Shown here in pieces: positions 284-57,312 of a DNA stretch of 64,000 nt. Below the pieces are notes generated by a model. It saw only the letters and a list, made by a program, of their open reading frames with translations. It was not told where the DNA came from and made no database searches. This DNA is from Hygrophila difformis (taxonomy: Eukaryota; Streptophyta; Magnoliopsida; Lamiales; Acanthaceae). The stretch spans positions 45,743,417 through 45,807,416 of the forward strand of contig JAOANR010000011.1 in NCBI GenBank assembly GCA_030278955.1, written 5' to 3'. A program made the position numbers and the translations under genes. Numbering within the stretch: position 1 is the first letter of the stretch; each line of letters opens with the position of its first letter.

Positions 284-718
284 ATGTCTAATGAGGAAAT
301 TATGTCATTGTCATCTCCTGTATATTTCATGTTTCTCCGGTCATTCAAAATCTCCATGACTACAACTCCAAAGATATAGAAGTATATATCAACCTTATTA
401 GAAGTTCCTTCCCCAGCAATGCATTCTGGGGCCAAATAACCCCTGCAAACACAAATAAGAGAATACATGTTAGAACACTTAATGCGCAATATTAAATATT
501 CAGCGTGGCATAAATATTATCATCAATGTGTTTAAGTGTATGCATTAGCCCAAAGCCTGAAAGTTTAGGATTCATTTCATTGTCCAGCAAAATGTTGCTG
601 GGTTTGATATCTCTGTGAATCAGTATCAGTTCTGAATTTTGATGAAGATGAACAACTGCTTTAGCAATCCCCATAATTATTTCGAAGCGCTGCGGCCATT
701 GAAGTCGATGACGTCCAT
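284..718 (-). pseudogene. Kinase-2 remnant of a tandem-kinase receptor (copy F)
   Basis: Two exon-like blocks match the second kinase domain of the receptors downstream. Block 718-about 490 encodes the catalytic-loop exon, with IHRDIKPSN intact but SGFGLM where an active kinase has SDFG. Block 442-284 encodes the next exon (GYLAPE, then FGVVVMEIL). The donor after the first block, GT in the other copies, reads GA here, and the second block has a length out of phase with its homologues. The ATP-loop exons that should lie at higher coordinates are absent; MITEs and a Helitron end occupy that place. The terminal exon is not seen at 1-283. I read it as a decayed duplicate, not a gene. Confidence 0.8.
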
Positions 719-756
719 CTTCATACATGTACCAGTCGGAGATTCTTGATCAAAGT

Positions 757-2064: not shown

Positions 2065-2736
2065 TTAACACAATAATATTACTCAAATTCACATAATAAC
2101 CCAGTTATTTATAACAAAGCAAAAGCCAAGACCATCATACTATCACATTACTCAAATTTTTACAAATTATATAAATTTACACATGATAAACTTATAGTTA
2201 TGGGCTAGTCCTCTACTAGTGACTGAAAATTAAACATGTAAAAATTAGGAATACGAATATTATGGATATGCATACGTAAACACACTCGGGTCGGGGTTGT
2301 GGTTGGATCAGGTCTGCCTACGGATCCGAGATCCCAACCAAACTAAAGATCGATTCTCGGGGCCTGACGGGTTGAATTCCCATCCCGAGTAACTACCTGG
2401 TAGTGGAAGGTTGTACTTATTTGGGAACTACTACGATTATTTAATACATTTTTCACATAATTACGAAATCAGGTGCCCCAAATCAAATGGAATGGAATTG
2501 CTTATGTCGTATGCCAATATTAGCTTGAAAGCAATGCAGTAGAGACACAGGAATTATTTTTGTTTTCGCTTCCCAATTTCGGTAAGGATCTGTAGTGTTA
2601 TTGCAACATACATCATTCTTGAGGGACACAAAGCGCATGGGGTTCTGATGAAGTGGAGATTAGAAACAAACATCTGTTGTAATTTGTGGACTACTTATGG
2701 TGCATATCAGTGCAGACCATCCCAGAAATGGCATGG
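2065..2736. other. Gene-free stretch downstream of receptor copy A
   Basis: I see no coding region. It is AT-rich apart from a GC-richer patch at 2281-2400. The part near 2640-2736 is probably the 3-prime UTR of copy A, since it resembles the region just below the stop codon of copy B. Confidence 0.4.
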
Positions 2737-4636
2737 CTACCTTTCCAATGTGTCGTCATATTCAAAAGTTGCATCACTGTCGCTGTGGTTTCCATTGATA
2801 TTCCATTCGCACCCAGTTGTTTGCAGGCATGAAGCTGCTGCTGCTTCTTTTTCCTCCAGAGAAGAATCTTCCCGGAGCAACATCTTGAGCACCGACGACA
2901 TATCTGGTCGATCAAAAGGAGACTTTTGAGTGCATAGAAGACTGACTTGGATGCATCTTAGTGCTTCATCAGTTGAGTATTCCTCATCACCAACAGACTC
3001 GTAAACAAAGTCTAATGCTCGCCCTTGATTCCATAGCTTCCATGCCTGTAGGACATTAACCGTATTATTACAATGTAACCATAATGTGAATTGGGAAGAG
3101 AACTCAGCATGCTGGAAACTGGTATATATCTCTTTCGTATGTATGCAGCAGGTGTGTTCTGTTCCTACTTGCAAGGTTCGTTTTTTCACTAAATCGTGCA
3201 TTTCATCTATTTTATGTTCATGCGCAATTACAGTTCAAAAATAGCAGAAGGGAACAAAAAGGAGGCAGTGAAATTATTATAATACACTGACACACCTCTA
3301 GGTTACGATTCTAGTTCACATGTGATTTCTTCATCCATTCCAGTTTCTAGATACTTACATGTTCAATGAGGTTTGTGCCATTTCTTGTATATTCAATGTT
3401 TCTCCGGCCATTCAAGATCTCCATGACAACAACTCCAAAGCTATATACATCACTCTTACTAGTAACCTCGCTAGTCCTGATATACTCTGGGTCCATATAA
3501 CCACTGCAACCACAAATAACAGAATTGCATGTTAGAAAGCTTAATGCGCAAGACTAAATAGTATAGGCCTAAGGACAGGACTTACATGGTGCCACACAGT
3601 CTGGTTGAATATGTATCGTCAATGTTTTTAAGAGCGCGCATAAGGCCAAACCCTGAAAGTTTAGGATTCATCTCATCGTCCAGCAAAATGTGGTTCAGTT
3701 TGATATCTCTGTGAATCAGTGTCAGCTCTGAATTTTCATGAAGATGAACAACTGCTTTAGCAATCCCCATAATGATTTTGAAGCGCTGCGGCCATTGAAG
3801 TCGCTGACGACGTTCATCTTCATACATGTACAAGTTTATCATGTTACAAAGGACAATGAAAAAGACATATATAGGTACTGCTTTCATTTCCAGATTAAGA
3901 TACGGAAAAAGGAAGAAGAGATTACATACCAAATAAGAAGGTATCTAAACTTCCATTTTCCATGAACTCATACAGAATCATTCCTTGTTCATCATTGAAG
4001 GAATATCCTAATAGATTAATGATGTTTTGATGATGGACAGACTGGGCGAAAAAAATCTCTGTGTAGAAAAACCTGAGGCCATCTCCTGTTAAAGAGAGGA
4101 CTTTAACAGCTAGTCTCTGTCCTGTAGGTAACACAGCCTGTATGAAGCTCCAGTGATTAAAAGTTAAAACAGTAAAAGATATATATGAATGAACATTTAG
4201 AAAACTTTGGCAAAGTTACCCAATAGAAGACAGAGCCGAAGTCACCCTTTCGAATCTTATTTGAAGGGGAGAAATTATTTGTAGCAGTTGTAATTGTGGC
4301 CAAATCATACCTTGGCAAATATATTTCCTTTAAATCTGAAAACACAAATTCATTGGATAAAGTTAACATTATAGTGTCTGCATAAATGTTCATCCGTCGC
4401 ATATAAATGGATACATACCTTCATCTGATATATGACGTTCTTTTCCCTTGAAAAATTTTAGCATTTTCCAAATTGTCCAAAGCCATTGCCATAATGTCTT
4501 ACGTGGTTTTTGTTTTTTTCCCCCGATTTTTCCATCCGTATAGCCAGTGTTGTTCATTTCAATGTTCGGTTGTTCTGTCAAAGGAGATGGAGGTGTCTCC
4601 GCAGCAGCTGAGGAGGCCTCTTTTCGTTGTTCACTG
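2737..4636 (-). pseudogene. Kinase-2 (pseudokinase) exons of receptor copy A, out of frame with exon 1
   Basis: Exons are 4335-4220, 4137-3930, 3817-3586, 3503-3359 and 3045-2737, all with GT-AG borders and in phase with each other. The kinase-2 coding part of exon 1 would run to 4419, ending AG|GTATGT. The domain is DUF26/S-domain-like (YEFMENGSLDTFLFG; IHRDIK; GYMDPE; AWKLWNQGRA). It is degenerate: the glycine loop reads IRKGDFGSVF, the magnesium-site Asn is replaced (HRDIKLNH), and DFG reads GFG. The frame is shifted from the receptor by a 4-base duplication at 4664-4671. Without it, exon 1 would end in the same phase as in copies B and E. The exons themselves have no stops, so the break is recent or an assembly error. 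Confidence 0.78.
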
Positions 4637-6967
4637 CTAGATGATGCAATATTTCCCTCCTCTGACGGACGGGCAGGCTTGAGTCGCCGCCGCATTATTC
4701 ATTGTCTCATTTGGTACAGTAACTTTCCGGCTGTCGTGTTGCTCAAGCGCAAACTCCAGTTGCAGCACGACTTGAGCCATTGTAGGCCGTTCTTTCGGAT
4801 CATCGTGCAAACATTTTTCAGCAACTCCAACAAATGCCTTCAGGCTATCTGGTGAGACTTCCCCTCTCAGGTTCGGAGCTATAATACTCTCAACCTCTCC
4901 CTTACTAATTTTATTTCGAGCCCATTTGTGTAGATAGTAAGCATCCTCTGCAAGCATCGGTTCTACTGCAGGTCTCACACACAATACTTCCAACAACACC
5001 ACACCAAAGGCATATATGTCACTTTTCCTCGTAAGTTTACCAGTTCTATAATAGTAGGGGTCTAAGTACCCACGTGTACCCTTAACTTTTGTGCTAACAT
5101 GACTCTCTAAATTGAGCTTGTCTTGAGGTTTCGCCAATCCAAAATCTGAAACCTTTGGTACAAAATTTCCGTCTAGGAGTATGTTTGAAGTTTTCACATC
5201 ACGATGGATTACTCCACAACCCGTGTGAAGATAGTCTAGACCTCGGCCAGCTCCAATGCAAATATTGAGCCATTGCTTCCAGGTGAGGAGCGATCGGTTA
5301 TTGTCGTCACAAGGAAGTTTGTAGAGCTGATCAGCCAGGGTTCCATGGGGCATATACTCATAAACAAGAATCATTTCCCTACTCTCACTGCAGTAGCCAA
5401 TGAGAGAGACAAGATTCATATGTCGGACTTTCGAAAGTGTTTCTATCTCTGTCAAGAACTCGTATTCCCCTTCACCTGAGCATCTCTTTATGGCCACAGT
5501 TTGCTGTCCGTTATCAATAAGCCCTCTGTAAACCTTACCAAATCCTCCCCTTCCAATGAGGAAGGCATCACTGAAGTTATTGGTGGCCAGCCGGATCTCT
5601 TCCAATGAAAACCGCCTACAGATTTGTTCAGCTCTTGTCAAAGGTTTGTTTTCATCCTCTGCAACGCTACATTTCCTAATTAGTTGTAACTTATAAAGAA
5701 TGACATCAAGCATTATAAGTATAGCTGTTCCAACAGTTGCAATTGCATTTCTCCGACTAAAACCGGACTGCAAACTTTTGATAATCCGAGATGGCGAATC
5801 ACTTGATGTCGGAAGGGCATTTGGACTGGCAAAGCTGTTATCAGGGTTAATCAGCTTGTAGATTTCAAACCCTTCAAGGAATCTTTGCCGATCCATAATT
5901 TCATCATTGGACTGCAAGGAAATTGATAGGGTTCTTTTACCCCTTTGTTTTGGCCCTTTGATCATCACTTTGTAGTCTCTATACCACAGGTTTTCATGGC
6001 CATCCCTACCTGCAACTATTTCTGTGTTAGTATCAACAACCCTTTTATTAATCATAACCTTAAAAATTATCCCACCAGTCTCTGCTGTCTTGAGTTCTGA
6101 GTCACTGAAATAAATCCTGACCAAGTAGCTGAACCCGGCATCCACTGATTTTTTCCAGCTAAGATTGTCCTTCCGATTCCTATTCCGTTTCTGAACCTTT
6201 TCCCACATCCCCAAGATATCACCAAAATCATCTCCGGCTGGAGCAGCATCTCTCCCGACACTCATTCTGTGGACTAATTCAAGAGCAGCGGTGTTTTCAA
6301 TGTATACCAGAGATTGCCCAATGATCTGTGTCTCGAGATCACCTCTAAAATAAGAGAGTTGCTCAGGTATGGAGATGATTTCAACACCGTTTATGAAAGC
6401 ATATGTGTTATCTTGTAACGTGGTGCTTGTGGGCGAGAATATTATATCTAGATCATGACTTTCTAGTATAGTGAAACAGAACTCCTTGACAAAAGTATTC
6501 ACACCATGTGCATCAGCAGTGAGAGAAGGGCTGAAGTTAGTTAGTAGGATGAAAGATCCAGCTTCCACAGTAAACAAGTCCCTTAACCCTTTAAAGCCTC
6601 TATAGACAGCTGAATTGAAATGAAGGCGAAGAATTATCTGACCTGGATTCATCAGTTTGAATGTGTACTGAAATTTGGAACGGGAGATCCTGGCTGTGTT
6701 GTGAGGAACTGGATCGGTGGTGGTGGATTTCGTGTTGATGGGTGTAGAAGAAGTTGAAGAACCCGTAATTTGTAAGATGGAGGATGTTGTGGGTTGTATG
6801 TCACCAATCCATTCCCTGCCATTGATAATGGCCGCAGAATTAACATGAGTTGAGCCACAATTAATAGAAATATCTCCAGGAAGCCGCGCCGGGTCGTTGC
6901 TACCGTTGGTTATCACAGTGAAACAGAGCAGTAGCAGGCCGACTGTAGCAGAAGGATAAGTAGACAT
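4637..6967 (-). CDS. Malectin-like receptor kinase, CrRLK1L/FERONIA type (copy A)
   Basis: A 776-residue ORF. It has a signal peptide (about 1-23), a malectin-like ectodomain with the family start PGDISINCGS and FKLMNPGQIILRLHF, one transmembrane segment near residues 405-425 and a complete Ser/Thr kinase: [44 protein letters not shown]. All catalytic residues are present. The single exon fits the usually intronless CrRLK1L family, whose members sit in the plasma membrane and sense cell-wall state or RALF peptides. It most resembles the clustered MEDOS-type members; the ligand is unknown. The ORF stops early because of the tandem GACGGACG at 4664-4671, which replaces the linker and second kinase found in copies B and E. 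The start is the Met just before the hydrophobic leader, as in B. Confidence 0.88.
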   Translation of the reverse strand: MSTYPSATVGLLLLCFTVITNGSNDPARLPGDISINCGSTHVNSAAIINGREWIGDIQPTTSSILQITGSSTSSTPINTKSTTTDPVPHNTARISRSKFQYTFKLMNPGQIILRLHFNSAVYRGFKGLRDLFTVEAGSFILLTNFSPSLTADAHGVNTFVKEFCFTILESHDLDIIFSPTSTTLQDNTYAFINGVEIISIPEQLSYFRGDLETQIIGQSLVYIENTAALELVHRMSVGRDAAPAGDDFGDILGMWEKVQKRNRNRKDNLSWKKSVDAGFSYLVRIYFSDSELKTAETGGIIFKVMINKRVVDTNTEIVAGRDGHENLWYRDYKVMIKGPKQRGKRTLSISLQSNDEIMDRQRFLEGFEIYKLINPDNSFASPNALPTSSDSPSRIIKSLQSGFSRRNAIATVGTAILIMLDVILYKLQLIRKCSVAEDENKPLTRAEQICRRFSLEEIRLATNNFSDAFLIGRGGFGKVYRGLIDNGQQTVAIKRCSGEGEYEFLTEIETLSKVRHMNLVSLIGYCSESREMILVYEYMPHGTLADQLYKLPCDDNNRSLLTWKQWLNICIGAGRGLDYLHTGCGVIHRDVKTSNILLDGNFVPKVSDFGLAKPQDKLNLESHVSTKVKGTRGYLDPYYYRTGKLTRKSDIYAFGVVLLEVLCVRPAVEPMLAEDAYYLHKWARNKISKGEVESIIAPNLRGEVSPDSLKAFVGVAEKCLHDDPKERPTMAQVVLQLEFALEQHDSRKVTVPNETMNNAAATQACPSVRGGKYCII
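4664..4671. other. 4-base tandem duplication that shifts the frame of copy A
   Basis: The plus strand reads GACGGACG here, where copy E has a single GACG. It moves the reading frame so that the linker ends in a stop at 4637. Confidence 0.85.
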
Positions 6968-12051: not shown

Positions 12052-13593
12052 TCACACAACTCCATCTGAAGAGTCCTCTTCATCGGCAAAGGGATTCTGC
12101 TCAGAGGTACGAGCAGTGCTTGAAGAACCTTTCCTTGTCGGGGACAATGAACCTGGGAGCATACTGATGAGCTGATTGATCTTCCTTTTTGTAGCAATGG
12201 CCTCTTGACTTATTTTCGTCTGCTTGTCACTAAGTGCAAGCAATTCGGCTTTAATGAGCTGCACTCGATCAGTTCCAGACGGAGGAGGGCCTCCCTTAAA
12301 GTCATTGTGCTTGTCCCGCAAATTAGGAGTAGGGGCATGGACATTAATCTTGACAAGTTCAGTCTTATCAACCTTGATACCATGCTTATAAAGCAAAAGA
12401 GTAATCAGGGCCGGATAAGGAAGACTTGCTGCCTTAGAGATGTTGTCCTGAGTAAAACCTAACATCCTTTTTAAGACAAGAAGACCGAAATTCATTAGCT
12501 CAATCCCAGTATCAATAATGTACAGAAGTTTACCCATCTCCAAAGAAGGTTGAGAAGCATTCGTCGTTGGAAGAATGTTCGCACGACAGAGGTGGTACAG
12601 ACAATGGAACTTCATGGTCAGATCAGAAGAACTGCACTTGCGTCTTCCAAAATCAAAAGCACGTTCATTGGAAATATGAAAAGCAAGTTCAGCAGGCTCT
12701 TGAGGCAGGTACTCCAAAGCATCTCCGAGGTCGTCGTTAGGAGGAAGTTCCAACAACTCATTGATAGTGGCAGGGGTAAGTGTGATAAACTTTCCTCGAA
12801 TGTAGATCTTTCCTGCCCATGGTGAGTTTGCACTTAAAAGATCAGAAGAAAGATTGGCATAAAATTCTCTCACCAGTGTTGGAGAATAAGACTTGAAGAT
12901 ATTCGCCCATTTCAGTAAGTGTCTCTCCTCCAAAAACTCATCAAATCCCAGCTCGGAGTAAGTCTTGTGAGTGAAAGCCTCCTCTGGTATGAACTTCCTG
13001 TGAGCGAGATCACTTGTACCAAACTCCATCATTTCCTTTGTAAAGTAGTTTTTGTTGAAAGGTCGTTTCGACTTAGGATCAACAGGGGACTGCCTCGTGC
13101 GCGGTCGTTTGACAGAAGTGTTGACATCTGAAGTAGACGAACTCCTCTTTTTCTTTGAAGATCGTGTGGCTGGACGTCGAGGCTCAGTTTGGACTTCTGG
13201 TGACTCTCCCTGTGACACAGGGTCAGGGTTTGATGGCTCATCGTGAGGAAGAATGTCGTGTTCCACTTCGACATTTTCGTCTCCTCCTGGAGTAGGATGC
13301 TCTCCTTCAGTAGTGGTCGGAGGCGGAGTAGATTGAGTAGGAGGATCTTCCGCTTCAGCATTGTGACTCGTGGGAGTGTTGGTGGGTTGTTCAGGGGCTG
13401 GAACAACTTTGATTGGCTCGGCATCTACAGCAGCAGCAGTAATCGCTAACTCGGTAAGATTTGCAGTGGTTGTGGATGGATTTTCAACTTCAGGAACATT
13501 AGGGTTCTCAGAAATTGGGGATTTTGAGGGATCTTGAACGATCACAGGCTCAGAAGGCTTCTCGGCAACATTAGTGGAAGAAGATGAAGCCAT
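12052..13593 (-). CDS. Extra ORF of Sirevirus element 1 (putative plant transposon protein domain)
   Basis: The frame is open from 13644, but the Met at 13593 (MASSSSTNVAEKP) is the likelier start. It lies 20 bases after a CTTGCAG splice-acceptor-like site, an arrangement also seen in element 2. The protein is about 513 residues. A Pro/Thr/Ser-rich acidic N-terminus leads to a basic nuclear-signal-like patch (RSSKKKRSS; KRPRTR), then a folded part with FYANL and GKIYIRGKFITLTP. That part matches the domain called putative plant transposon protein, common in ORFs downstream of pol in plant retroelements. Such ORFs are sometimes called env-like, but I see no signal peptide or membrane span here. 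The function is unknown. Confidence 0.75.
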   Translation of the reverse strand: MASSSSTNVAEKPSEPVIVQDPSKSPISENPNVPEVENPSTTTANLTELAITAAAVDAEPIKVVPAPEQPTNTPTSHNAEAEDPPTQSTPPPTTTEGEHPTPGGDENVEVEHDILPHDEPSNPDPVSQGESPEVQTEPRRPATRSSKKKRSSSTSDVNTSVKRPRTRQSPVDPKSKRPFNKNYFTKEMMEFGTSDLAHRKFIPEEAFTHKTYSELGFDEFLEERHLLKWANIFKSYSPTLVREFYANLSSDLLSANSPWAGKIYIRGKFITLTPATINELLELPPNDDLGDALEYLPQEPAELAFHISNERAFDFGRRKCSSSDLTMKFHCLYHLCRANILPTTNASQPSLEMGKLLYIIDTGIELMNFGLLVLKRMLGFTQDNISKAASLPYPALITLLLYKHGIKVDKTELVKINVHAPTPNLRDKHNDFKGGPPPSGTDRVQLIKAELLALSDKQTKISQEAIATKRKINQLISMLPGSLSPTRKGSSSTARTSEQNPFADEEDSSDGVV

Positions 13594-13884
13594 TGAAGGA
13601 AAATATGAACTGCAAGACTTAAAATTTTCGAAGAGTGAAAGCAAATGTGAAGTTTAAACTCAGAAAACTGCACTATAAAGAGAGAGACGAAGAAGGTGAA
13701 GGGGCGACGGTTTCTTGATGTACGACGTGATGGCTGTCAGTTTTTGCAGTCATCATGAACGCTGCAACAACGTCTCCACGCCAAGTTTATCGGATTTGAA
13801 AAGAAATTGGGCCTGAAAATGCTTTTGGGCCAGATCAAGTGTAAAAGTATATACATAATATTATAAACATAAGCTTGAAATGAA

Positions 13885-15036
13885 TTAGTTAGAGTAACAA
13901 AGGCCCATTACCGATCTAAGAGTCTCAAACCTTTCACCATCAAGTGCCTTAGTTAGGATGTCAGCGCGTTGTTCTAACGTCCCAATATGTTCAATGTTGC
14001 ATACACTTTCTTCTACAAGGTCTCGAATGAAATGATACCTTATATCAATGTGCTTGCTGCGACTATGTAGAACAGGGTTCTTTGAAATGTTGATCGCACT
14101 GGTATTGTCGCAATAGACCTTAAAATCATCCTTCTTAATGCCATAATCACTCAAAATTTGCTTCATCCACATTAGTTGTGAACAACAACAAGTTACAGCT
14201 ATATACTCTGCTTCCGCTGTGGAGAGTGCTACTATATTTTGCTTCCTAGAAAACCAACACACAAGGTTGTTCCCAAGGTAGAAGCAGTCTCCGGTCGTCG
14301 AGCGTCTGTCATCACTACAACCTGCCCAATCCGAATCCGTATACCCTATCAAGTCCAAATTTGATCTTTTAGAGAACCAAATGCCTAATCCAACAGTTCC
14401 TTTGATATATCTCATGATGCGTTTGACAGCTTTCAAATGCACCTCCTTTGGATTTGCTTGAAATCTTGCACAAACTCCCGTGCTAAAAGAGATATCTGGT
14501 CTAGTGGCTGTTAAGTAGAGTAGACTACCGATCATACTTCGATACAATTTCTGATCTACATCAGCTCCTTGATCATCCTTAGATAGTTTCTGTTGTTGTC
14601 CTTGCGGTGTTCTAGCGACCTTGCTATCATTCAACTTAAATCTCTTTAGCATGTTTCGAGCATACTTCTCTTGACTAAGAAATATTCCATCATCCAGTTG
14701 CTTCACTTGTAGTCCTAAGAAGTAAGTCAACTCTCCTATCATACTCATTTCAAACTCAGACTGCATTGCTTTAATAAAGTCGTTTCTGAGATGTTCTGAC
14801 GTTGCTCCGAAGATAATATCATCTACATATACTTGTGCAATAATGAAGTGGTCGTTCTCATGTTTGATAAACATCGTCTTATCAGCTTCTCCTCTTTTGT
14901 AACCATTGCAGATAAGGAATGAAGACAATCGATCATACCAAGCTCTAGGAGCTTGCTTAAGACCATAGAGTGCACCTTTTACTCGATAAACATGATTTGG
15001 TCTAGTTGGATCCTCAAAACCAGCAGGCTGTGCCAC
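13885..15036 (-). CDS. Reverse transcriptase (C-terminal part) and RNase H of element 1, separate frame
   Basis: A 383-residue frame continuing pol after the frameshift. It carries [22 protein letters not shown] (the RT catalytic box), the RNase H region with STAEAEYIA, and the usual copia C-terminus. It overlaps the upstream frame by 58 bases. A one-base loss near 15045 accounts for the change of frame. Element 2 keeps the same region in one frame. Confidence 0.88.
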   Translation of the reverse strand: MAQPAGFEDPTRPNHVYRVKGALYGLKQAPRAWYDRLSSFLICNGYKRGEADKTMFIKHENDHFIIAQVYVDDIIFGATSEHLRNDFIKAMQSEFEMSMIGELTYFLGLQVKQLDDGIFLSQEKYARNMLKRFKLNDSKVARTPQGQQQKLSKDDQGADVDQKLYRSMIGSLLYLTATRPDISFSTGVCARFQANPKEVHLKAVKRIMRYIKGTVGLGIWFSKRSNLDLIGYTDSDWAGCSDDRRSTTGDCFYLGNNLVCWFSRKQNIVALSTAEAEYIAVTCCCSQLMWMKQILSDYGIKKDDFKVYCDNTSAINISKNPVLHSRSKHIDIRYHFIRDLVEESVCNIEHIGTLEQRADILTKALDGERFETLRSVMGLCYSN

Positions 15037-18000
15037 AAGATCTCCTCATTGATCTTGCCATTTAAGAAAGCTGTTTTGATGTCAAGTTGATACAGCTTGA
15101 AATCCATAGAACAAGCAAAGGCTAGTAGAATTCTGACAGCTTCCATCCGAGCTACAGGGGCGAAAGTTTGACCATAATCTAAACCTTCTATTTGTGTGAA
15201 ACCTTGAGCTACCAAGCGTGCTTTATTCCTGATGATATTCCCTTGTTCATCTGTTTTGTTCCTAAAGACCCACTTAGTACCAATAACATTGATGTTCTGT
15301 GGTTGTTCGACCAACTCCCAAACATCATTCCTTTCGAATTGAACCAGCTCGTCTTGCATTGCTGCTATCCAATATTCATCCATAAGGGCTTCAGATACAT
15401 TCTTTGGCTCCACTTTAGATATGAAACAGTTTAGACCTGCCAATTCTCTGTAATTAACTCTCTTGCTTCTAGTAAGACGTTGAGCGCTAGGATCACCAAT
15501 AATATCTTGTTGTGAGTGATGCTTCAGAGTTCTTGGACCTTTTTTCTTATCCAAAGCAGTAGTTTCAGAACTTTCTACACACTCTTCTGAAAGTTGCTCA
15601 GATTGATCTCCTTCATCATCATCAATATCAACTCCTTCAAACTGATGTTGATCGGATGTCTCAACTACAGGTGCTTCTGAAATACTGGAAGTAGGAACAC
15701 TAGGTACTGGATCATCCAGTTCTCTAGATGGTAGATTGTACTGATCTTTAAACAATACATTGACTGACTCAGTAACTTTCTTAGCTTGAGTTAGATAGAC
15801 CCGAAAAGCTCTTGAGTTATTTGAGTAACCCAAAAACCATCCTTCTTCAGATCTTGCATCAAACTTTTTAAGATGTTCCCTGTCCCTGTAGACAAAACAT
15901 TTTGATCCAAAAATATGAAAGTATTTAAGAGTAGGAGTGTTACCATTCCAGATTTTATAAGGTGTGTCGTTGGTGTGAGGTCGTAACAACACCCGATTGA
16001 TGATATGACAAGCTGTGTGAACTGCTTCGGCCCAAAATGACTTGCCAAGTGTGCTAGCATGTAGCATAGACCGTGCCATCTCTTGAAGAGTCCTATTCTT
16101 TCTTTCAGCAATCCCATTTTGTTGAGGCGTTTTTGGTGCAGAAAACTCATGAGAAATTCCATGGTTGTTACAGAATTGTTCGAACTCCTGGTTTTCGAAC
16201 TCACGTCCATGATCAGTCCTTATTCTCTTAATTTTGACTTGTTTCTCATTCATTAGCTTTAGGCTCAATCTCTCAAAATGTTGGAATGCTTCATCTTTAC
16301 TCCTGAGAAAACAGACCCAAGTAAATCTCGAAAAATCATCTACAAGAACTAAAGTATACCTCTTGCCATTTAGGCTTTCGGTTTCTGTAGGACCCATAAG
16401 ATCCATGTGAATAAGTTCTAAGCAGTGACTTGTTGAGATTCCATCAGTCTTCTTGTGTTTGGTTCGTGTCTGCTTCCCTTTAGAACAATCAACACAGGTA
16501 AGATCTTTGTTGTTATGAAGTTTTGGCAACCCTCTGACAGCATTGGAGCAGCTCAGCTTATACAAGGTTTGGTAGTTGATATGTCCTAGCCTTTTGTGCC
16601 ACAAGTTTGTAAGATCATCTTTGCTAACTAGTGCCTTGGCCAGATTCACTTCCAAAGTATAGCAATTATTCTTAGAGCGTTTCCCTGTCAAAATATTATT
16701 TCTCCTGCAATCAAAAACTTCACAAAAATGCTTAGTAAAGATAACAAGAGCATCTTCATCACATAATTGACTTATAGAAATGAGATTAGTAGTAAGCCCT
16801 TCTACATGATAAACCTTAGAAAGTTGAGATAAATCTCCACTCTCTATGTTACCAAAACCTGTAATCTTACTCTTTGCACCATCACCAAAAACAACATCTC
16901 CACAATCTCTAGGAGTGAAATTGCTCAGAATCACTTTATCTCCAGTCATATGTCTTGAACAGCCTGAATCAAAGTACCATCTCTTACTTCGAAGTTGTTG
17001 CTGTGAAGTCAGAACTACAAGACATTGAGATATTTTTCTCTTAGGCACCCATTCTTTCTGAATAATGATCTTCTTCTTCAAATCATCATTAGGCCAAACC
17101 ACTGGACGTCCGTTCATAAGATCACGAACTATTCTCATGCATGTTTCAGCTGTATGGCCAGGAAGACTGCAGTAAACACACTCTCGGCGTCGTTTGGATG
17201 ATGTGGCAACATCTTGTTGAGATAATGAACTTGACTCAGCATTTAGGTTTCCTCCACTAACAAATAATCTTTTTCCAGTAGATCCTTGATTCTTATAACC
17301 AATTCCTCTCATATCTTTATAGCTCTTCCCAATAGAAAGTACTTCATCCAGTTTGCCCTTACTCTTAGCCATTTTCTTCAAATCAGCAATTTGGTCTTTC
17401 AAAACAATCAACTCTTTCTGAAGAGATTCCTTTTCCTTGGACAATGTTGAGTTCTGAACCTTGACCTCTTCATACTCTCTCTTCAAAGCATTTAGATCAT
17501 CAACAGCTTTGACTTTCTCAGATTCTGCTTTGTTAAGTGTCAGCTCGATGTCTGTGAGTTGTTTCAACAACTTCTGTTTTTCTAGAACAGTTTCATCAAA
17601 CTCTTCCTTAAGATCTTCATAGATTTCAACAAGCTCAGCATAAAGATTACCTGATTCACCTGAAACAATAGAGGAAATGTCAGCAATTAATTGTATTGAC
17701 TCAGGATTACCTTCCATAGGAGTAGGGCTGGCTTCTCTCGTCATATATGCTACAACTTCTTCTTCATCACTAGATTGTTCATTAGAGGCTTCAACTTCTG
17801 ACTCATCATCATCACTTAGTGTTGCTTGTAGTGCTTTTCCTCTCCTCTTCTTGCCTGTAGGACACTCCTTTTTGACATGACCTTTCCCACCACATTCAAA
17901 ACATATGACTTCATTATCTTTCTCAGTATCTTCATCATCTCTTGCTTTCTTAGGCTTTCGAAATTTCCCATCAAATTTCTTGTCCTTTTTGAAATTCAGC

Positions 18001-18842
18001 GTTTTGGTCGTTGATGGCGCGTCAGAACTTCTAGTCGAATTCCTGTTTGACTGGAACTTTTGAAAGCGTTTGTTCTGCAACATCTTTGCAATCTTCTTGG
18101 AGAGAAAAGATACATCATCTTCTGTAAATTCTGTAGCATCCTCTTCAGCCTTGAATGCGATGTTCTTCTGGGATTTCTCGGTTGCAAGATGGTTCATCTC
18201 ATATGTTTGCAAGATTCCCACTAATTCTCTAAGAGACATGGTCTTGATTTTCTCTACTTCCTCAAGGGCTGAAACCTTCCCTGAATATTTCTTTGAAACT
18301 GATCTGAGGAATTTTCTCACCAATTTTGGTCCTTCAAAGGTCATTCCTAATGCAGTAGCTTGATTAACAATGTCGATGAATCGTCCGTAGTATGTTGTAA
18401 CATCTTCATCATTCGTCATCCGCAGACTATCGAAGATAGACTCGATCCGATGTAGCCTGGTAGATTTAACGTCCTCTGAACCTTCATGCTGTGTCTCCAA
18501 GAAGTTCCATGCTTCGTATGCGGTTGTGCAATCTGCAATCATTCGAAATTGAGGTTCGTCCATGGCACCGCTGATTGCGTTGAGAGCCGTGTAATTTGCT
18601 TGCCGTAGACTCTTCTCTTCTTGTGTCAATTCGGACTTTCTTGCTAGACGAATTTTTGCAGGTTCAGTCGATCCTTCTGGAGCTTTTTCTTCTCTAATTG
18701 GATGCGTCCATGGCTCAAGAACAGACTCCCAGACCTCTTCTCCTTGTGCTAGTAGATAATTCTTCATTCTTGCTTTCCAATAGGCGTAGTCATTTCCGTC
18801 GAACAATGGTGGTCGTGCATTCGATGCTCCTTCTCGAATCAT
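14979..18842 (-). CDS. Gag, protease, integrase and partial RT of Sirevirus element 1
   Basis: A 1287-residue frame. The gag N-terminus (PPLFDGNDYAYWKARM) is of the copia UBN2 type. A CCHC knuckle lies near residue 312 (CFECGGKGHVKKEC), followed by a long coiled coil and a second knuckle near 555 (CVYCSLPGHTAETC). The protease motif [11 protein letters not shown] is near 620, integrase HHCC starts near 745, and [16 protein letters not shown] follows. RT begins but the frame is lost at NGKINEE. Two knuckles with a coiled coil are typical of Sireviruses. The start is the first Met, 66 bases inside the primer-binding site. Confidence 0.9.
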   Translation of the reverse strand: MIREGASNARPPLFDGNDYAYWKARMKNYLLAQGEEVWESVLEPWTHPIREEKAPEGSTEPAKIRLARKSELTQEEKSLRQANYTALNAISGAMDEPQFRMIADCTTAYEAWNFLETQHEGSEDVKSTRLHRIESIFDSLRMTNDEDVTTYYGRFIDIVNQATALGMTFEGPKLVRKFLRSVSKKYSGKVSALEEVEKIKTMSLRELVGILQTYEMNHLATEKSQKNIAFKAEEDATEFTEDDVSFLSKKIAKMLQNKRFQKFQSNRNSTRSSDAPSTTKTLNFKKDKKFDGKFRKPKKARDDEDTEKDNEVICFECGGKGHVKKECPTGKKRRGKALQATLSDDDESEVEASNEQSSDEEEVVAYMTREASPTPMEGNPESIQLIADISSIVSGESGNLYAELVEIYEDLKEEFDETVLEKQKLLKQLTDIELTLNKAESEKVKAVDDLNALKREYEEVKVQNSTLSKEKESLQKELIVLKDQIADLKKMAKSKGKLDEVLSIGKSYKDMRGIGYKNQGSTGKRLFVSGGNLNAESSSLSQQDVATSSKRRRECVYCSLPGHTAETCMRIVRDLMNGRPVVWPNDDLKKKIIIQKEWVPKRKISQCLVVLTSQQQLRSKRWYFDSGCSRHMTGDKVILSNFTPRDCGDVVFGDGAKSKITGFGNIESGDLSQLSKVYHVEGLTTNLISISQLCDEDALVIFTKHFCEVFDCRRNNILTGKRSKNNCYTLEVNLAKALVSKDDLTNLWHKRLGHINYQTLYKLSCSNAVRGLPKLHNNKDLTCVDCSKGKQTRTKHKKTDGISTSHCLELIHMDLMGPTETESLNGKRYTLVLVDDFSRFTWVCFLRSKDEAFQHFERLSLKLMNEKQVKIKRIRTDHGREFENQEFEQFCNNHGISHEFSAPKTPQQNGIAERKNRTLQEMARSMLHASTLGKSFWAEAVHTACHIINRVLLRPHTNDTPYKIWNGNTPTLKYFHIFGSKCFVYRDREHLKKFDARSEEGWFLGYSNNSRAFRVYLTQAKKVTESVNVLFKDQYNLPSRELDDPVPSVPTSSISEAPVVETSDQHQFEGVDIDDDEGDQSEQLSEECVESSETTALDKKKGPRTLKHHSQQDIIGDPSAQRLTRSKRVNYRELAGLNCFISKVEPKNVSEALMDEYWIAAMQDELVQFERNDVWELVEQPQNINVIGTKWVFRNKTDEQGNIIRNKARLVAQGFTQIEGLDYGQTFAPVARMEAVRILLAFACSMDFKLYQLDIKTAFLNGKINEEILWHSLLVLRIQLDQIMFIE

Positions 18843-21405: not shown

Positions 21406-24400
21406 TCATGGTGCCTGCCGGGCATCCCAGAAACGGCCCCATTCCGGCATTGTGTCGTCCTTAGGTTCAAGATTTGATTTTCTGTCACTATTTTCGTCAC
21501 CCAAATCTCCATTGCTATTCCGGAACCGTTCCCAGTTGTCTGGGTGTGATGAAGCTGCTTCATTTACTTTTTCCTCTAGGGAAGAATCTTCCCCGACCAA
21601 CATCTTGAGCACCGACGACATCTCTGGTCGATTGGAAGAAGAATTTTGGGTGCATAGAAGGCCGACTTGGATGCATCTTAGTGCTTCATCAGCTGAGTAG
21701 TATTCCCCACCAAGAATCTGGGAAACCATGTCTATTGCTCGCCCTTGATTCCATAGTTTCCATGCCTGCAGGACATAAACCGTATTATTACAATGTAACC
21801 ATAATGTGAATTGTGAAGAGTGAAGAGAAACTGGTATCTCTTTCATAAATCTACTTACATGATCAAATATGATTTCTTCATCCATTCCAGTTTCTAGATA
21901 CTTACTTGATCAATGAGGGGGATTGTATAATAGCCGTCTCTTCCAAGTTCTTTGTTTCTCCGGTCATTCAAAATCTCCATGGCAACAACTCCAAAGCTAT
22001 ATACATCAACCTTACAAGTAACCTTAGTAGTCCTGAAGCACTCTGGGTCCATATAACCACTGCAACCACAAATTACATATATAATTACATGTTAGAAAGC
22101 TTGACTAACTAGTACAGGCCTAAGGACAGTACTTACAGGGTGCCACACTCTACGGTTGAATATGTGTCGTCAATGTTTTTAAGAGTACGCATAAAGCCAA
22201 ACTCTGAAAGTTTAGGGTTCATCTCACTGTCCAGCAAAATGTTGCTGGGTTTGATGTCTCTGTGAATCAGTATCAGCTCTGACTTTTCATGTAGATGAAC
22301 AACTGCTCTAGCAATCCCCATAATTATTTTGAAGCGCTGGGGCCATTGAAGTCGATGACGTTCATCTTCATACATGTACCAGTTTAAAAGGGCAATGAAG
22401 AAGATGTAAGGTCCTGCATTCCTTTCCCAGATTGAGATACAGAAAAGGAAGAAGAGATTACATACCAAATAAGAAGGTATCTAAACTTCCATTTTCCATG
22501 AACTCATACACAATCATTCCTTGTCTATCACTGATGGAATATCCTAATAGTTTAATGATGTTTGGATGACGGAGATGGTGAGCCAAAAGAATCTCAGTTT
22601 TGAACTCCCTTCGACCTTGATGACTTGAAAAAGAGATGACATTAATTGCTACTCTCTGTCCTGTAGGTAACACAGCCTGTACGAAGCTCCAGTGATCCGT
22701 TAGTAGGGTGATTAAAACAGTAAAATACTACACATGAATGCATATTATGAAGAGTTTCTTAGCAAAGTCACCTCATAGACAGAGCCGAATACTTTCTCTC
22801 CAATCTTATTTGAAGGAGAGAATTCATTTGTAGCAGTTGTAATTGTGGCCAGATCATACCTTGGCAAGTTTATTTCCTCTCCAAAAAAGTCTGAAAACAC
22901 AAATCATACCTTGGCAAGTTCAGTTAATATGTGCATAAATGTTCATGCGTGGCATATGGATGAATACATACCTATATCTGATATAATATGTGCATAAATG
23001 TTCTTCTTTTTCCACTTTGTCCAAGGCCATAATTTCTTACGTGGTTTTCGTGTTTTTCCACAATTTATTCCAGCTGTATAGTCAGTGTTGTTCATTTCAA
23101 TGCTAGGTGGTTCTGTCAAAGGAGATGGAGGTTTCTCTGCAGCTAAGGAGGCCTCTTTTCGTTGTTCTATGCTAGATGATGCAATATTCCCCTCCTCTAA
23201 TGGGCAGGCTTGAGTAGCTTCCGCAGCATTCATTGTTTCATCTGGTACCATAAGTTTCCGGCTCTCCTGTTGCTCAAGCGCAACCTCCAATTGCAGCACG
23301 ACTTGAGCCATTGTAGGCCGTTCCTTTGGATCATCATGTAAACATCTTTCAGCAACTCCAACAAATGCCTTCAGGCTATCTGGTGACACTTCCTCTCTCA
23401 GGTTCGGAGCTACAATACCCTCAATCTCTCCCATACTAATTTTATTTCGAGCCCACTTGTGCAGATAGTAGGCATCCTCTCCAAGCATCGGTTCCACAGC
23501 AGGTCTCGCACACAATACTTCCAACAACACCACGCCGAAGGCATATATGTCACTTTTCCTTGTAAGTTTACCAGTGCTGTAATAGTATGGGTCCAAGTAC
23601 CCACGTGTACCCTTAACTTTTGTGTTAATATGACTCTTTAAATTGAGCCTGTCTTGTGGTTTTGCCAAGCCAAAATCTGAAACCTTTGGTACAAAATTTT
23701 CATCTAGGAGAATGTTTGAAGTCTTCACATCACGATGGATTATTCCACAACCCGTGTGCAGATAGTCTAGACCTCGGCCAGCTCCAATGCAAATATTGAG
23801 CCATTGCTTCCATGTGAGGACAGAGCAGTTGTTGCTGTCACATGGAAGTTTGTAGAGCTGATCAGCCAGAGTTCCATGGGCCATGTACTCATAAACGAGA
23901 ATCATTTCCCTACGCTCACTGAGGTAGCCAATGAGAGAGACAAGATTAATATGCCGGACTTCTGAAAGTGTTTCAATCTCTGTCAAGAACTCATGTTCCC
24001 CTTCACCTGAGCATCTCTTTATAGCCACCGTTTGTTGCCCATTATCAATAAGCCCTCTGTAAACCTTACCGAATCCTCCCCTTCCAATGAGAAATGCATC
24101 ACTGAAGTTATTGGTGGCCTGCCGGATCTCTTCCAATGAAAACCTTCTACAGATTCGTTCAGCCCTTGTCAAAGGTTTGTTTCCATCCTCTGCAAAGCTA
24201 GATTTCCTAATTAGCTGTAACGTATAAAGAATGACATCAAGCATTACAAGTATAGTTGTTGCAACTGTTGCCATTGCATTTCTCCGAATAAAACCGGACT
24301 GCAAACTTTTGATAATCCAAGATGGTGGATCCCTTGATGTGGGAAGAGCATTTGGACTGGCAAGGCTGTTGTCAGGGTTACTCAGCTTGTAGATTTCAAA

Positions 24401-25468
24401 GCCTTTGAGGAATCTATGCCCTTCCCTAATTTCATCATTGGGCTGTAGGGAAATTGATAGAGCTCTTTTTCCCGCTTGTTTTTGCCCTTTGATCATCACC
24501 TTGTAGTCTCTGTACCACATGTTGCCATGGCCAACCCTCCCTGCAACTATTTCTGCGTTAGTATCAACGACCCTTTCATTAATCAGAACCTTAAAAATCA
24601 GCCCACCAGTCTCTGCTGTCTTGATTTCTGACTCACTGAAATAAATCCTTACCAAGTACCCGAACCCAATATCCACGGATTTGTTCCAGGTTAGATTGTC
24701 TTTCAGGTTCACCATTTGTTTTTGAACTGTTTTCAACATCCTCACCATGTCATCAAAATCATCTCCCGCCGGAGCAGAATCTCTTTTGACACTGATTCTG
24801 TGGACTAATTCAAGAGCAGTGGTGTTTTCAAGATCACCCCTAAAATAAGATAGTTGCTCTGGTATTGAAATGATTTCAATCCCGTTTATGAAAGCATATG
24901 TGTTATCTTGTGACGTGGTGCTTGTGGGCGAGAATATTACATCTAGATCATGATTTTTTTCCAGTATACCGAAACAGAATTCCTTGACAAAAGTAGTCAC
25001 TCCATGTTCATCAGAAGCGAGAGAAGGGCTGAAGTTACTGAGTAGGATGAAAGATGCAGCTTCCACAGTAAACAAATCCCTTAACCCTTTAAATCCTCTA
25101 TACACAGCTGAATTGAAATGAAGGCGGAGAATTATCTGACCTGGATTCATCAGTTTGAATGTGTACTGAAATTTGGAACGGGAGATCCTGGCTGTGTGGT
25201 GAGGAACTGAATCGGTGGAGATGGATTTGGTGTTGATGGGTGTAGAGGAAGTTGATGAACCCTTTATCTGTTGTAACATGGAGGATTTTCTGGGTTGTAT
25301 GTCTCCAATCCATTCCCTGCCGTTGGTCGCCGCAGAATTAACTGCTGAGCCACAATTAACAGAAATATCTCCAGGAAGCCGCGCCGGATCGTTGCTGCCG
25401 TTGGTTATGAGAGTGAAACAGAGCAGCAACAGCAGGGCGATTGTAGCAGGAGGATAACAACTAGACAT
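21406..25468 (-). CDS. Malectin-like receptor kinase fused to a second, kinase-dead domain (copy B, complete)
   Basis: Exons are 25468-22972, 22890-22772, 22676-22466, 22365-22137, 22059-21906 and 21765-21406. All introns are GT-AG and in phase, giving 3570 bases and 1189 residues. The order is signal peptide (1-23), malectin-like ectodomain (about 32-380), transmembrane helix (about 394-418), CrRLK1L kinase (about 450-730; IGRGGFGKVY, VAIK, HRDVK near 577, DFG near 598), linker with KKLWPW, then kinase 2 (833-1189). Kinase 2 has DUF26/S-domain exon borders ([39 protein letters not shown]), but VAIK reads VAIN (near 884) and DFG reads EFG (997). It should therefore be inactive. The Met at 25468 was chosen over the upstream one at 25597 because a signal peptide follows it, as in copy A. 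Relative to A the ectodomain lacks 12 residues in frame. Confidence 0.88.
22892..22972 (-). other. Intron 1 of copy B, joining the two kinase halves
   Basis: The donor is ATAG|GTATGT at 22972/22971 and the acceptor GTGTTTTCAG|AC ends at 22891, with exon 2 starting at 22890. The codon split across it is Asp. Without splicing, the first exon ends in a stop at 22943. The same donor and acceptor pattern occurs in copies A and E. Confidence 0.8.
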
Positions 25469-41486: not shown

Positions 41487-44400
41487 ATGAGTCGGGAAGG
41501 AGGAAACATTTCCAGGCCACCTTTGCTATATGGGACAAATTTTTCTTATTGGAAGACCAGGATGAGGGCTTTTCTCATGGCCATTGATGAAGGTGTTTGG
41601 GATGCTGTTGAAACCAAGTTCGAATGTCCCACTGTGGAGGACGATGAAGGTGTCAAAATACCCAAACCCAAGGACAAATGGACTGCGGAAGAAAAGACCC
41701 TATCATCCATGAACTCCAAGGCTCTTAATGCTATTTTCAATGGAGTCACTGAAGATCAATACAAGCTTATCTCCGCATGTGACACTGCGTATGATGCATG
41801 GGAAGTACTGGTAAACTCCCATGAAGGTATGGCCTCTGTTAGATCCTCCAAGTTAATTTCCATTGAATCCCAATTTCATAAACTTGTTATGGATGAAAAT
41901 GAGAGCATTGTTAGCTATGTTGGTAGAATTCGTGACTTGACCAACCAGGCACATCAACTTGGGAAAACCTATTCCCAACAAGAGTTGGTGAGAAAGATTG
42001 TAGGAACTATTCCCGACAGGTTTAACCCCAAGATTGCTGCCCTAGAACTCTACAAGGATTACTCCACTATGCAAGTAGATGAACTAATGGGGATACTCCA
42101 GTCTTGGGAAATGGATCATTGCAAGGAGGTTGGTGGCAAAAGGATAGCCTTCAAGGCCGAATCAAAGGTGGTGAATGACAAGGAAGCCGAGATTGATAGT
42201 GATCACAGTGATGATGACGAGATCTCTCTTCTCACAAAGAGATTGGCCAGACTTCTCAAGAATAAGAAAGGGAAGGAAGGTTTTTCTAGTGGGAAGGGCG
42301 ATGGATCAAACTCCAGAAGAGATTCCAAAAGAAGATCCAAACCCTATGGCAAGGATCAACAGTCCGAAGAAAGGCCCAAGGGACCAGAATGCTACGAATG
42401 CAGAGGTTTTGGTCACATTAGGGCAGATTGTGGAAATCTAAAGAAGAAGGAAAAGAAGGCCTACCACATTACCTTTAGTGATCATGATGAGGAACCTGAA
42501 TGCAGTGAGGGAGAATCTGAGCATGGGATTGCTCTCATGGCTCCAGGATCATGGGATTCAGACTCATGTTCGGACACTGAGTCACAACACGGTACTGATT
42601 CTAACCCTATGAATAATGACTTCCCTAATCATGATTGTGCTTCTCTTAGCAGCAAAGAAGCAGACAAAATAGAGCGTCTCACAGACCTCTATAATGAAGT
42701 TTTTGAGAAATTAGAAATTTCCATGACCGAGATAGAAGATTTGCAAAGAACCAATCAGGATCTTAGAGATGAGGTCGAAAGGCTCCTGGACGAGAACAAA
42801 GCCTTACTAGCTAAGGCTGAAGCAGTGTCCATCCACGTGACCGAACTTGAGGCTGGAATTCTCTTTGAAAAAGAGGAAAAGGAGAAGATGTCTACCAAGC
42901 ATGATTTAGTTACAGTGGAAATCACTGAACTCCGGGAGAAACTCAGCAAATCTGAAAAAATTCTGTCGGACATGAATAAAGGGAAGGCCAAACTCGATGA
43001 CGCTCTAGCAGCTGGAAAATCTCATGGGAACAGGCGAGGTCTTGGGTACAGCAACTTCAGTACTGCCTCTACCTCCAAAGGGAATATCAAGTTCGTTGCA
43101 GGAGGACAACTGAGTGACCGCGCACCTAGTCAGAACACTAAGACTGTTCACAAAGGTCCCAAGGGGTATAACAAAAGGAGGAATTCGTTCAAAGGACCTC
43201 TCATATGCGACTATTGCAAGTTCAGAGGGCACAAGACCGAACACTGTCGAAAGATCATCAAGGATCTTCTTGAAGGAAAACCGGTGAGATGGCCTAATGA
43301 AGAACTCAAGAAGAGGATCTCCATAAGGCGTGAATGGGTTACCAAAATCTCTGCAAGATGCAATGTGGCTTTCCTATCCTCTAGACAAAAGGGCAAGAAT
43401 GCAACTTGGTACTTTGACAGTGGTTGTTCGAGGCACATGACAGGAGACAAAGACGTCCTCAAACCATTAAAAGATGTTGATGGTGGATCGGTGGTCTTTG
43501 GAAATGGTAAAAAGGGTCGTCTCTCTGGACAAGGAACTCTCCATGGAGATGGTCTACCCAAGCTCAACAATGTCTACTATGTGGAGGGATTGCATGCTAA
43601 CCTCATTAGCATAAGTCAGCTTTGCGATGAAGACTTGACTGTATCCTTTAACAAAAAATATTGTGAAGTTCTCGACCCTAACAATGTATGCGTCATAAGG
43701 GGACTAAGATCTCGGAATGACTGCTATTTACTTGTACAAACTTGTAATTTTGTGAAAGATGCAGGAAGCTCCCGAAATCTACTCTGGCATGAAAAGTTAG
43801 GTCATCTGAACTTCAGAGATCTGATCAAGTTGAGCAGGACAGGAGCTGTTCGTGGACTTCCAGACCTAAAGAAACATGACTCTGACTTTTGTGAAGATTG
43901 TGCCAAGAACAAGCAAACTCGCGTGTCCCATCCCGTGACTGAACACAATGCTACAACACACTGTCTGGAACTCCTACACATGGACCTCCTTGGGCCAACT
44001 GAAATTTCTAGTCTGGGAGGTAAAAGGTACATTTTCGTTTGTGTAGATGATTTCTCCAGATATACGTGGGTTGATTTTGTCAGGGAAAAGAGCGAAGCTT
44101 TCAAAGCCTTTATGAAACTGTGCAATCAAATTATGAACGAGAAAGACTGCAAAGTAAAGAGAATTCGCAGTGATCATGGGAAGGAATTCGAGAATCAAGC
44201 ATTCGAGGATTACTGTTCCAGCATTGGGATCAAACACGAGTTTTTAGCACCAAAGACTCCTCAGCAGAATGGAGTAGTGGAGAGGAAGAACCGCACCTTG
44301 CAAGAAATGGCACGTGTCATGATGAACTCCAAGAAGGTTCCTGAGTTCCTCTGGGCAGAAGCAATCAACACGGCGTGCTATATGATAAATCGAGTGTATA

Positions 44401-46484: not shown

Positions 46485-46847
46485 GTTCCAGACAGGATCT
46501 TGGGGATCTCATTTGTCATCATTAAAACGGCTAAGTTTTTTTTCTGGATTTTCTTATATCTTAGCCTATTATTCGAGATCCCATACTTAATTACAATTTT
46601 TTATTGCAGAAAATACTTCCTCATACCTTGACAGTTGTTCGACTAAAGAAGGAAGTTTCTTTACATTTTTGGTAACCGACTACCTAGGAGGGATTCTATG
46701 ATGATCTCACGCCTCCACTAATAGGGAAGTTTCCTTTCAAATCTTACTTTCTTTTCAGAAACTTTCCCCCGCGTCTCCCTTCTTCTCTCTTGCACTCGCT
46801 CTAGTATTCTTGTCTCTCAAAGAACACACTACTCCCATACTCTCTTT

Positions 46848-46861
46848 CTCTCGCAGGAACA
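46848..46861 (+). promoter_or_regulatory. Splice-acceptor-like site before the second ORF of element 2
   Basis: CTCTTTCTCTCGCAG, a pyrimidine run ending in CAG, lies 5 bases before the ATG at 46862. An equivalent CTTGCAG precedes the second ORF of element 1. Expression from a spliced RNA is inference. Confidence 0.5.
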
Positions 46862-56977: not shown

Positions 56978-57312
56978 TGATCTCAATACCGTTTATGAAA
57001 GCATATGTGTTATCTTGTGTCGGGGAGAATATTACATCCAACTCTTGATTTTCCAGTATGTTGAAACAGAATTCCTTGACAAAAAGTATTCACACCATGT
57101 GCATCAGCAGTGAGAGAATGGCTGAAGTTACTGAGCAGGATGAAAGGTCCAGCTTCCACAGTAAACAGTTCCCTTAACCCTTTAAAGCCTCTATATAAAG
57201 GTGAATTGAAATGAAGGCGGAGAATTATCTGACCTGCAGGATTCAGTTTGAATGCATACAAAAATCTAGAACGGGAGATCCTGGCTATGTTGTGACGAAC
57301 TGGGTCGGTGGA
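56978..57312 (-). pseudogene. Receptor copy D, malectin-like ectodomain part
   Basis: The minus strand carries LNPAGQIILRLHFNSPLYRG and LFTVEAGPFILLSNFSHS, matching copies A and B, with an extra A near 57085 and a loss near 57020. It is cut at 57312 by the start of a copia LTR. The signal-peptide end of the gene was not found beyond that element. Confidence 0.85.

Follow-up and report, generated by a model that had tools for sequence, protein, structure and literature searches.

Tandem kinase proteins (Rpg1, WTK1/Yr15, Sr62, Lr9/WTK6-vWA and Pm36/WTK7-TM) are described, in the accessible parts of their sources, as carrying two kinases in one protein, often a kinase and a pseudokinase, and as having arisen by fusion as well as by duplication (PMC6170490, PMC11006675, PMC10260399). 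As far as the available text of the 2018 Yr15 survey goes, none of its 92 proteins has additional conserved domains, and Pm36 is described in the accessible text on it as having a membrane span at the C-terminal end. In the portion available of their paper, the authors of Lr9 hypothesise that kinase 2 is an integrated decoy (PMC10260399). Of the Arabidopsis CrRLK1L receptors, LET2/MDS1 is reported in the text accessible to require its kinase activity for cell death via the NLR SUMM2 (PMC7519094). NLR major integration clade 1 of grasses is presented, in the part of that study available, as having a single fusion site, a conserved motif directly upstream of it, and many integrated domains (PMC5819176). 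The available text of a 2026 report describes kinase fusion immune proteins as specifically found in cereals (PMC12830362).

The window, that is the whole stretch of 64,000 nucleotides analysed here (C3:45743417-45807416 of a 915-Mb plant genome), contains a gene, copy B, that on its sequence is an in-frame fusion of a receptor kinase with a second kinase. Its spliced model, read from 25468 to 21406 on the minus strand, comprises six exons that total 3570 nt and encode 1189 aa, the only stop being the terminal one, as the preliminary description had proposed, and all five introns are bounded by GT/AG. The splice sites said there to join exon 1 in phase to the second kinase were both recovered, with exon 1 ending in ATATAG/GTATGT at 22972 and exon 2 beginning at 22890 behind TTTTCAG, which gives an intron 1 of 81 bases. 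When intron 1 is left unspliced, the exon 1 frame does run to a stop, at 22943. The weakest junction is the exon 4 acceptor (TATGAAG/ATGAACG), which lacks a good pyrimidine tract, yet keeps the phase. Coordinates are given in Table 1.

Table 1. Positions in the window of the parts of copy B and of two further copies of the gene.
Feature	Position	Strand	Evidence
Copy B exon 1, from signal peptide through malectin-like ectodomain, predicted membrane span and kinase 1 to the linker	22972..25468	-	Open frame, donor AG/GTATGT, Malectin_like match
Copy B ectodomain, residues 26-395	24284..25393	-	Match to FERONIA ectodomain 6a5b
Copy B predicted membrane span, residues 402-420	24209..24265	-	Hydropathy maximum
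Copy B kinase 1, residues 440-736, VAIK / HRDVK / DFG intact	23261..24151	-	Motif positions, FERONIA best PDB match
Copy B linker with basic Trp motif KKLWPWTKWKKK; the motif stands ahead of most slot fillings	22973..23260	-	Loose Trp pattern
Copy B exon 2, start of kinase 2	22772..22890	-	Acceptor TTTTCAG, junction aligned in 11/11 copies
Copy B exon 3, kinase 2, subdomain II lysine replaced (VAIN)	22466..22676	-	Spliced model, motif positions
Copy B exon 4, kinase 2, HRDIKPSN kept, DFG changed to EFG	22137..22365	-	Spliced model, motif positions
Copy B exon 5, kinase 2	21906..22059	-	Spliced model
Copy B exon 6, last part of kinase 2, C-terminal tail and TGA stop	21406..21765	-	Spliced model
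Copy A, same gene, 4-nt frameshift in exon 1, kinase 2 exons open up to the tail	2716..6964	-	Frame check
Copy E, fused frame open; exon 1 leaves the window and is completed by locus L032	61788..64000	-	1176-residue model, kinase 2 open

The assignment of the receptor half to the CrRLK1L type and of the second kinase to the DUF26/S-domain type, both made from the letters of the sequence in the preliminary description, agree with the database comparisons. Pfam finds Malectin_like (35 bits, a partial match at residues 37-240), Malectin, also over the cut-off, and two kinase stretches. Among PDB structures the FERONIA ectodomain (6a5b, E 8.6e-41) is the best match to the ectodomain, followed by ANXUR1/2, and FERONIA (309 bits) is also the best match to kinase 1, the next molecule being 2qkw (293 bits). 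The highest 19-residue hydropathy window, with a score of 2.02, lies between the two domains. The best PDB match of kinase 2 is the lectin-receptor kinase 6cth (205 bits), and in the kinase tree it clusters with S-domain and cysteine-rich kinases.

The interval 45.60-46.63 Mb holds twelve long copies of exon 1, a count that leaves out the fragments (copy D, in the window, and one at 46.206-46.210 Mb that also has kinase 2 pieces). They have at least 81% identity to B, with the exception of copy I, which shows 52% identity across a decayed frame. The same kinase 2 stands behind exon 1 in 11 of the 12, locus L030 being the twelfth. In all eleven of these DUF26-type copies a GGTATGT or GGTACGT donor and a CAG acceptor can be aligned; this, with kinase 2 indels that are mostly multiples of three in comparison with the introns, argues that the junction is not due to chance. 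Seven of the eleven keep an open fused frame as far as the natural C-terminus (B 1189, B' 1204, C1 1185, E 1176, H 1186, K 1191 and M 1167 residues, some lengths being counted from one or two codons ahead of the first Met). The frame check flags one exon 1 stop in H and in K, and paired frameshifts in E (10 and 1) and in M (5 and 7), which are taken as alignment effects or as self-compensating; the spliced models stay open. Two copies had been said to share the junction of B, and both do: the model of copy E is complete once sequence beyond the window is added, and copy A has one 4-nt frameshift in exon 1, its kinase 2 exons having no frameshift or stop before the tail and small indels within it. 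Three copies besides A are broken: N is disrupted in exon 1 and in exons 5 and 6 of kinase 2, I along the whole of exon 1 and, within the sequence retrieved, by one kinase 2 frameshift, and an insertion interrupts kinase 2 exon 3 of C0.

The same domain order, for which a protein search had been suggested, is found in annotated Lamiales proteins. Two protein searches and an alignment of 12 chosen Lamiales proteins show ectodomain, kinase 1, linker and kinase 2 in all of them, the genera being Andrographis, Erythranthe, Olea, Rehmannia, Penstemon, Phtheirospermum, Salvia, Orobanche, Henckelia, Primulina and Perilla. A one-off fusion confined to the window is ruled out by these proteins and by the cluster copies. 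Family membership was defined by a score above 450 bits together with an ectodomain, which kept 136 of 324 fetched proteins and dropped 188. At5g39000 or FERONIA appears in the source names of several relatives. Rhododendron and Bertholletia supply long annotated members that are more distant, and these and other long annotated proteins may include merged neighbouring genes. From the length of their contigs (3822 nt for P0090, which has 1216 aa), we infer that P0090, P0157, P0160 and P0171, the “lgn” entries, are transcripts. Because the C3 copies adjoin the Andrographis protein P0030 in both the kinase and the receptor tree (SH-aLRT support 90 for kinase 2 and 99 for the receptor), the DUF26-type fusion was probably inherited rather than locally made. 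This position in the receptor tree also makes Lamiales likely for the host.

These comparisons give good support for placing copy B in an asterid family of FERONIA/MEDOS-like CrRLK1L receptors, in which a fixed Trp/Lys-rich linker is followed by an exchangeable slot. The linker is constant and the content behind kinase 1 varies, with motifs like RLWPWDAFWNRVKPSKK preceding S-domain-type, PTI1-type, own-type and PBL-type kinases. A loose Trp pattern is found in 90 of 108 multi-kinase linkers, against a mean of 27.9 in shuffled linkers, and a strict W.W pattern in 61 of 108, against 0.6. By slot type, the loose pattern occurs in 55/63 S-domain, 14/14 PTI1, 3/3 CRK and 9/17 own-type proteins.

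Within the host genome, the slot of L030 holds a WAK-type kinase with YFG for DFG; among the matches listed, the closest full-length one stands at 79% and many are named wall-associated receptor kinase. L049 has an own-type slot, i.e. a copy of the receptor's kinase, with VAIR and GWG, and the slot of L052 is 98.9% identical to it. A PTI1-type slot stands behind six of the seven paralogs examined (L041-L047, genes followed part-way), and the slot piece of L047 matches 5xd6, which we take to be RLCK-VIII, with 228 bits versus 124 for the next match; one Sesamum member bears the name Pto-interacting protein 1. Receptor and second kinase share one exon in L030 and in L049, and in L041 a single exon runs from the receptor into the start of the PTI1-like kinase. 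Slots in other species are of the PBL/BIK1 type (385 bits to BIK1 versus 243 to FERONIA), the CRK type (from the kinase tree) and the LRR-kinase type (the P0128-type slot, presumably RPK2-like, with LRR-kinase affinity shown by 211 bits to BAK1). HSP70 occupies the slot in P0182 (649.7 bits) and in two further entries.

A census of 144 of 145 proteins (P0166 is omitted, its kinase match being too short) gives 57 of receptor plus S-domain kinase, 31 of receptor kinase only, a class into which all three HSP70 members are counted along with slots that are cut or split, 14 of PTI1 and 12 of own type, the rest being rarer or triple. Each slot was labelled by its best BLAST match among references chosen from the kinase tree, and the counts are biased to the kinase 2 type with which the first protein search was queried. 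In 36 of the 144, a figure that takes in the HSP70 members and the cut or split slots, just one kinase domain exceeds 150 residues. Parsimony on a quick receptor tree of 92 rows requires 14 label changes (the minimum for 8 states is 7, the shuffled mean 37.9), and well-supported branches alone make 7 changes necessary for the S-domain label and 5 for the own-type label, with PTI1 (support 99) and HSP70 (100) forming one group each. By this tree, and by the linker motif against its shuffled control, a constant receptor clade has undergone repeated independent fusions at one site, and the second-kinase position is, as read from these proteins, exchanged between kinase families. The exchange is not constant, since the DUF26/S-domain type dominates. 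That type may itself have entered the slot more than once, because the kinase 2 of Olea falls among other S-domain kinases in the kinase tree.

Three loci bear on how a slot changes. In C0 and L062, kinase 2 exons 4-6 precede a WAK kinase whose HRD and DFG are intact, the last of these exons being in one frame with it. Kinase 2 exon 3 of C0 is split by an LTR-type insertion (309 LTR bases in view are identical, and the target duplication is CAAGG or one base more), before which the receptor of C0 probably carried three kinases. The open reading frame of L030 retains the tail of an earlier DUF26-type kinase between linker and WAK kinase, and a free WAK gene on C15, with 90% identity to the L030 slot, has kept DFG. 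L030 looks like the C0/L062 arrangement after most of kinase 2 was lost and the WAK DFG became YFG. We infer that a slot changes by gain behind it and then deletion between.

Among 94 two-kinase proteins, all three catalytic residues are present in 93 of the first kinases (the exception has a gap at the lysine) versus 31 of the slot kinases (Fisher p 9e-25, uncorrected for relatedness); without the nine proteins of the host genome, the counts are 84/85 and 31/85. All seven open cluster copies have lost the DFG aspartate of kinase 2, which reads EFG, GFG, GFS or GFD. Judged by these residues, copy B likely combines an active kinase 1 with a degenerate kinase 2. That the slot is always a pseudokinase is ruled out by the 31 slot kinases with all three residues, the CRK type having them in 3/3.

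Selection differs among the parts of the protein. In six open copies (B' was omitted as a near-duplicate of B), pN/pS is 0.44 for the ectodomain, 0.30 (0.22-0.39) for kinase 1, 0.69 for the linker and 1.00 (0.82-1.27) for kinase 2, and NG86 medians agree. Within kinase 2 it is 1.75 in the N-lobe (bootstrap 1.14-3.54), a possible excess based on six copies with few synonymous changes and possible gene conversion, and 0.84 (0.65-1.10) in the C-lobe; relaxed constraint would also give a value near 1. Unique indels, scored relative to B in copies A, C1, E, H, K, M and N with copy I left out, are multiples of three in 25 of 31 cases in kinase 2 exons versus 13 of 51 in introns (Fisher p ~1e-6), and in 17/18 versus 9/36 without the broken copies N and A. 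A neutral simulation expects 2.4 stops per lineage at 0.09 substitutions per site, and the simulated chance of the zero kinase 2 stops in six lineages is 4e-7, a figure that is only supportive, the copies having been pre-chosen as open. Kinase 2 is probably translated, because its frame is kept despite the high pN/pS, with its amino acids apparently free or pushed to change.

Free members of the slot families BIK1/PBL, PTI1, WAK and HSP70 are known immune kinases or effector targets. We put at about one half the probability that the slot, mostly a pseudokinase, acts as an integrated bait or docking platform on an active receptor. The ectodomain, or a microbial effector tampering with the slot, would alter the contact of the slot with kinase 1, which would then phosphorylate partners and start defence, possibly via an NLR in the manner of LET2/MDS1 and SUMM2. 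A bait-only role cannot cover all members, because of the 31 of 94 slot kinases that keep all three catalytic residues. More tentatively, the asterid clade could be at the membrane what the NLR major integration clade is inside the cell, with a fixed receptor, an active kinase, a Trp/Lys linker and a landing site that would have acquired about seven types of kinase (S-domain/DUF26, CRK, PTI1, PBL/BIK1, WAK, LRR-type and own-type) plus HSP70, after which most of these kinases would have lost catalytic residues.

The main rival, which we regard as unlikely but deserving of weight, makes the slot kinase an internal regulator like the pseudokinase of Janus kinases, restraining kinase 1 or docking its substrates in wall or growth signalling, with no effector sensing. 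The intact kinase 1 beside a mostly degenerate slot would suit such a regulator, CrRLK1L receptors are known, in the accessible sources, as growth and wall sensors, and the available text of the Yr15 paper makes the Janus kinase comparison; but a part fitted to kinase 1 should not be swapped for other kinase families or HSP70, nor evolve at a pN/pS near 1 beside a conserved kinase 1. The same pN/pS of 1.00 is what would be seen if the slot kinase were a tolerated appendage, translated but nearly functionless and drifting since the receptor joined another kinase gene, and the four broken copies of eleven and the 36 proteins of 144 with one kinase domain only point the same way. This we consider improbable, given that the frame of kinase 2 is kept relative to the introns, that stops are absent from the six lineages chosen as intact, and that the host genome and Andrographis have the fused order in common, with kinase 1 and kinase 2 trees in agreement.

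Merged genes are a common annotation error, and an unspliced intron 1 leads to a stop at the tenth codon past the last whole exon 1 codon; the locus might comprise a receptor gene that stops in intron 1 followed by an independent kinase gene, or a single gene with receptor-only and fused products. We regard this as very improbable. Intron 1 of copy B is short, its kinase 2 has no Met before residue 926, and residues 835-925 are Met-free in all seven open copies (copy E has one Met, at the last codon of exon 1), so that kinase 2 could hardly stand as a gene of its own. The one-exon fusions L030 and L049, and the L041 exon that runs into the slot kinase, also speak against it, and with the conserved junction and the lack of an internal start in kinase 2 such relatives rule out separate genes or assembly noise. 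A start within the exon 1 linker, or a mixed output, is possible.

If the slot is indeed a bait or docking platform, a large dicot family would extend the kinase fusion immune class beyond cereals, and would tie cell-surface and effector-type sensing into one chain, so that a single protein guards both outside and inside. It would also offer a natural landing site for engineering recognition, and it raises the question of whether the slot determines what is recognised. Tandem kinases are known, as are CrRLK1L receptors and integrated decoys, and their combination with an exchangeable slot is apparently unreported: none of the titles and abstracts listed in full-text searches of the open-access literature, a scope outside which most subscription papers and the TKP atlas fall, reports a CrRLK1L receptor with a second kinase in such a slot. 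The 2025 TKP atlas of Reveguk et al. reportedly includes numerous TKPs that have membrane spans and integrated domains, and single members of the copy B family may be among them.

The likeness to tandem kinase proteins drawn in the preliminary description stands for the anatomy, an intact kinase plus a degenerate one. Unlike in those proteins, here an ectodomain and a predicted membrane span lie ahead of both kinases, the receptor is constant and the second domain is exchanged, and copy B departs from the 2018 description of tandem kinases in that Malectin_like and Malectin exceed the Pfam cut-off. With the MEDOS/LETUM branch of CrRLK1L receptors (At5g38990, LET2/MDS1, and At5g39000) copy B shares the malectin-like ectodomain and the intact kinase, and a span is predicted in it as well. 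To our knowledge the Arabidopsis members of this branch end after one kinase, and copy B differs from that type by its second kinase in frame. NLR major integration clade 1 likewise has one receptor clade and one fusion site, but it consists of intracellular NLRs and no homology is claimed. The CrRLK1L-1-like dual kinases of sunflower at OrDeb2/OrAnom1 also have two kinase domains and CrRLK1L-1 affinity and come from an asterid resistance interval, but the OrDeb2 dual kinases are, in the accessible text, without any transmembrane or extracellular domain (PMC8866362, PMC10884359).

Within the window, the stretches between the receptor copies hold frames of Copia-type retrotransposons as well as PF20167 transposon proteins. 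The exon 1 pieces of copy D are scattered across 5 kb and are interrupted at 53.8-57.0 kb, and the orphan fragments of kinase 2 (the DUF26/S-domain-type kinase of exons 2-6) have no exon 1 match immediately upstream within the window.

Positions of the receptor copies, fragments and mobile elements
Feature	Position	Detail
Orphan kinase 2 fragments	window 313-719	
Copia-type retrotransposon frames and PF20167 transposon proteins	window 12052-18842, 41487-49000, 58222-60666	
Copy D, exon 1 in broken pieces	window 52077-57312	
Copy C0	L062 and L059/L035; C3:45590264-45605181	
Copy Bp	C3:46168162-46175266	fused frame open
Intronless receptor, WAK second kinase	L030 460-4014	1184 aa

Copy Bp is a 98-99% identical duplicate of copy B, from which it lies 0.4 Mb distant on one chromosome. 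In copy I (L048), many frameshifts occur throughout exon 1 and the kinase 2 exons in view are intact in frame except for one; kinase 2 looks as if it were younger in this copy, or gene-converted.

The place after the linker can be filled in other ways. At locus L030, a remnant tail of an older second kinase sits between the receptor part and the wall-associated type (WAK) kinase, and in copy C0 a WAK kinase follows directly on receptor, kinase 1 and a kinase 2 of DUF26 type; a recent LTR-type insertion in exon 3 of this kinase 2 divides the series. Among relatives' proteins, an HSP70 domain fills this place in the same receptor in P0160, P0171 and P0182 (Henckelia and two other contigs).
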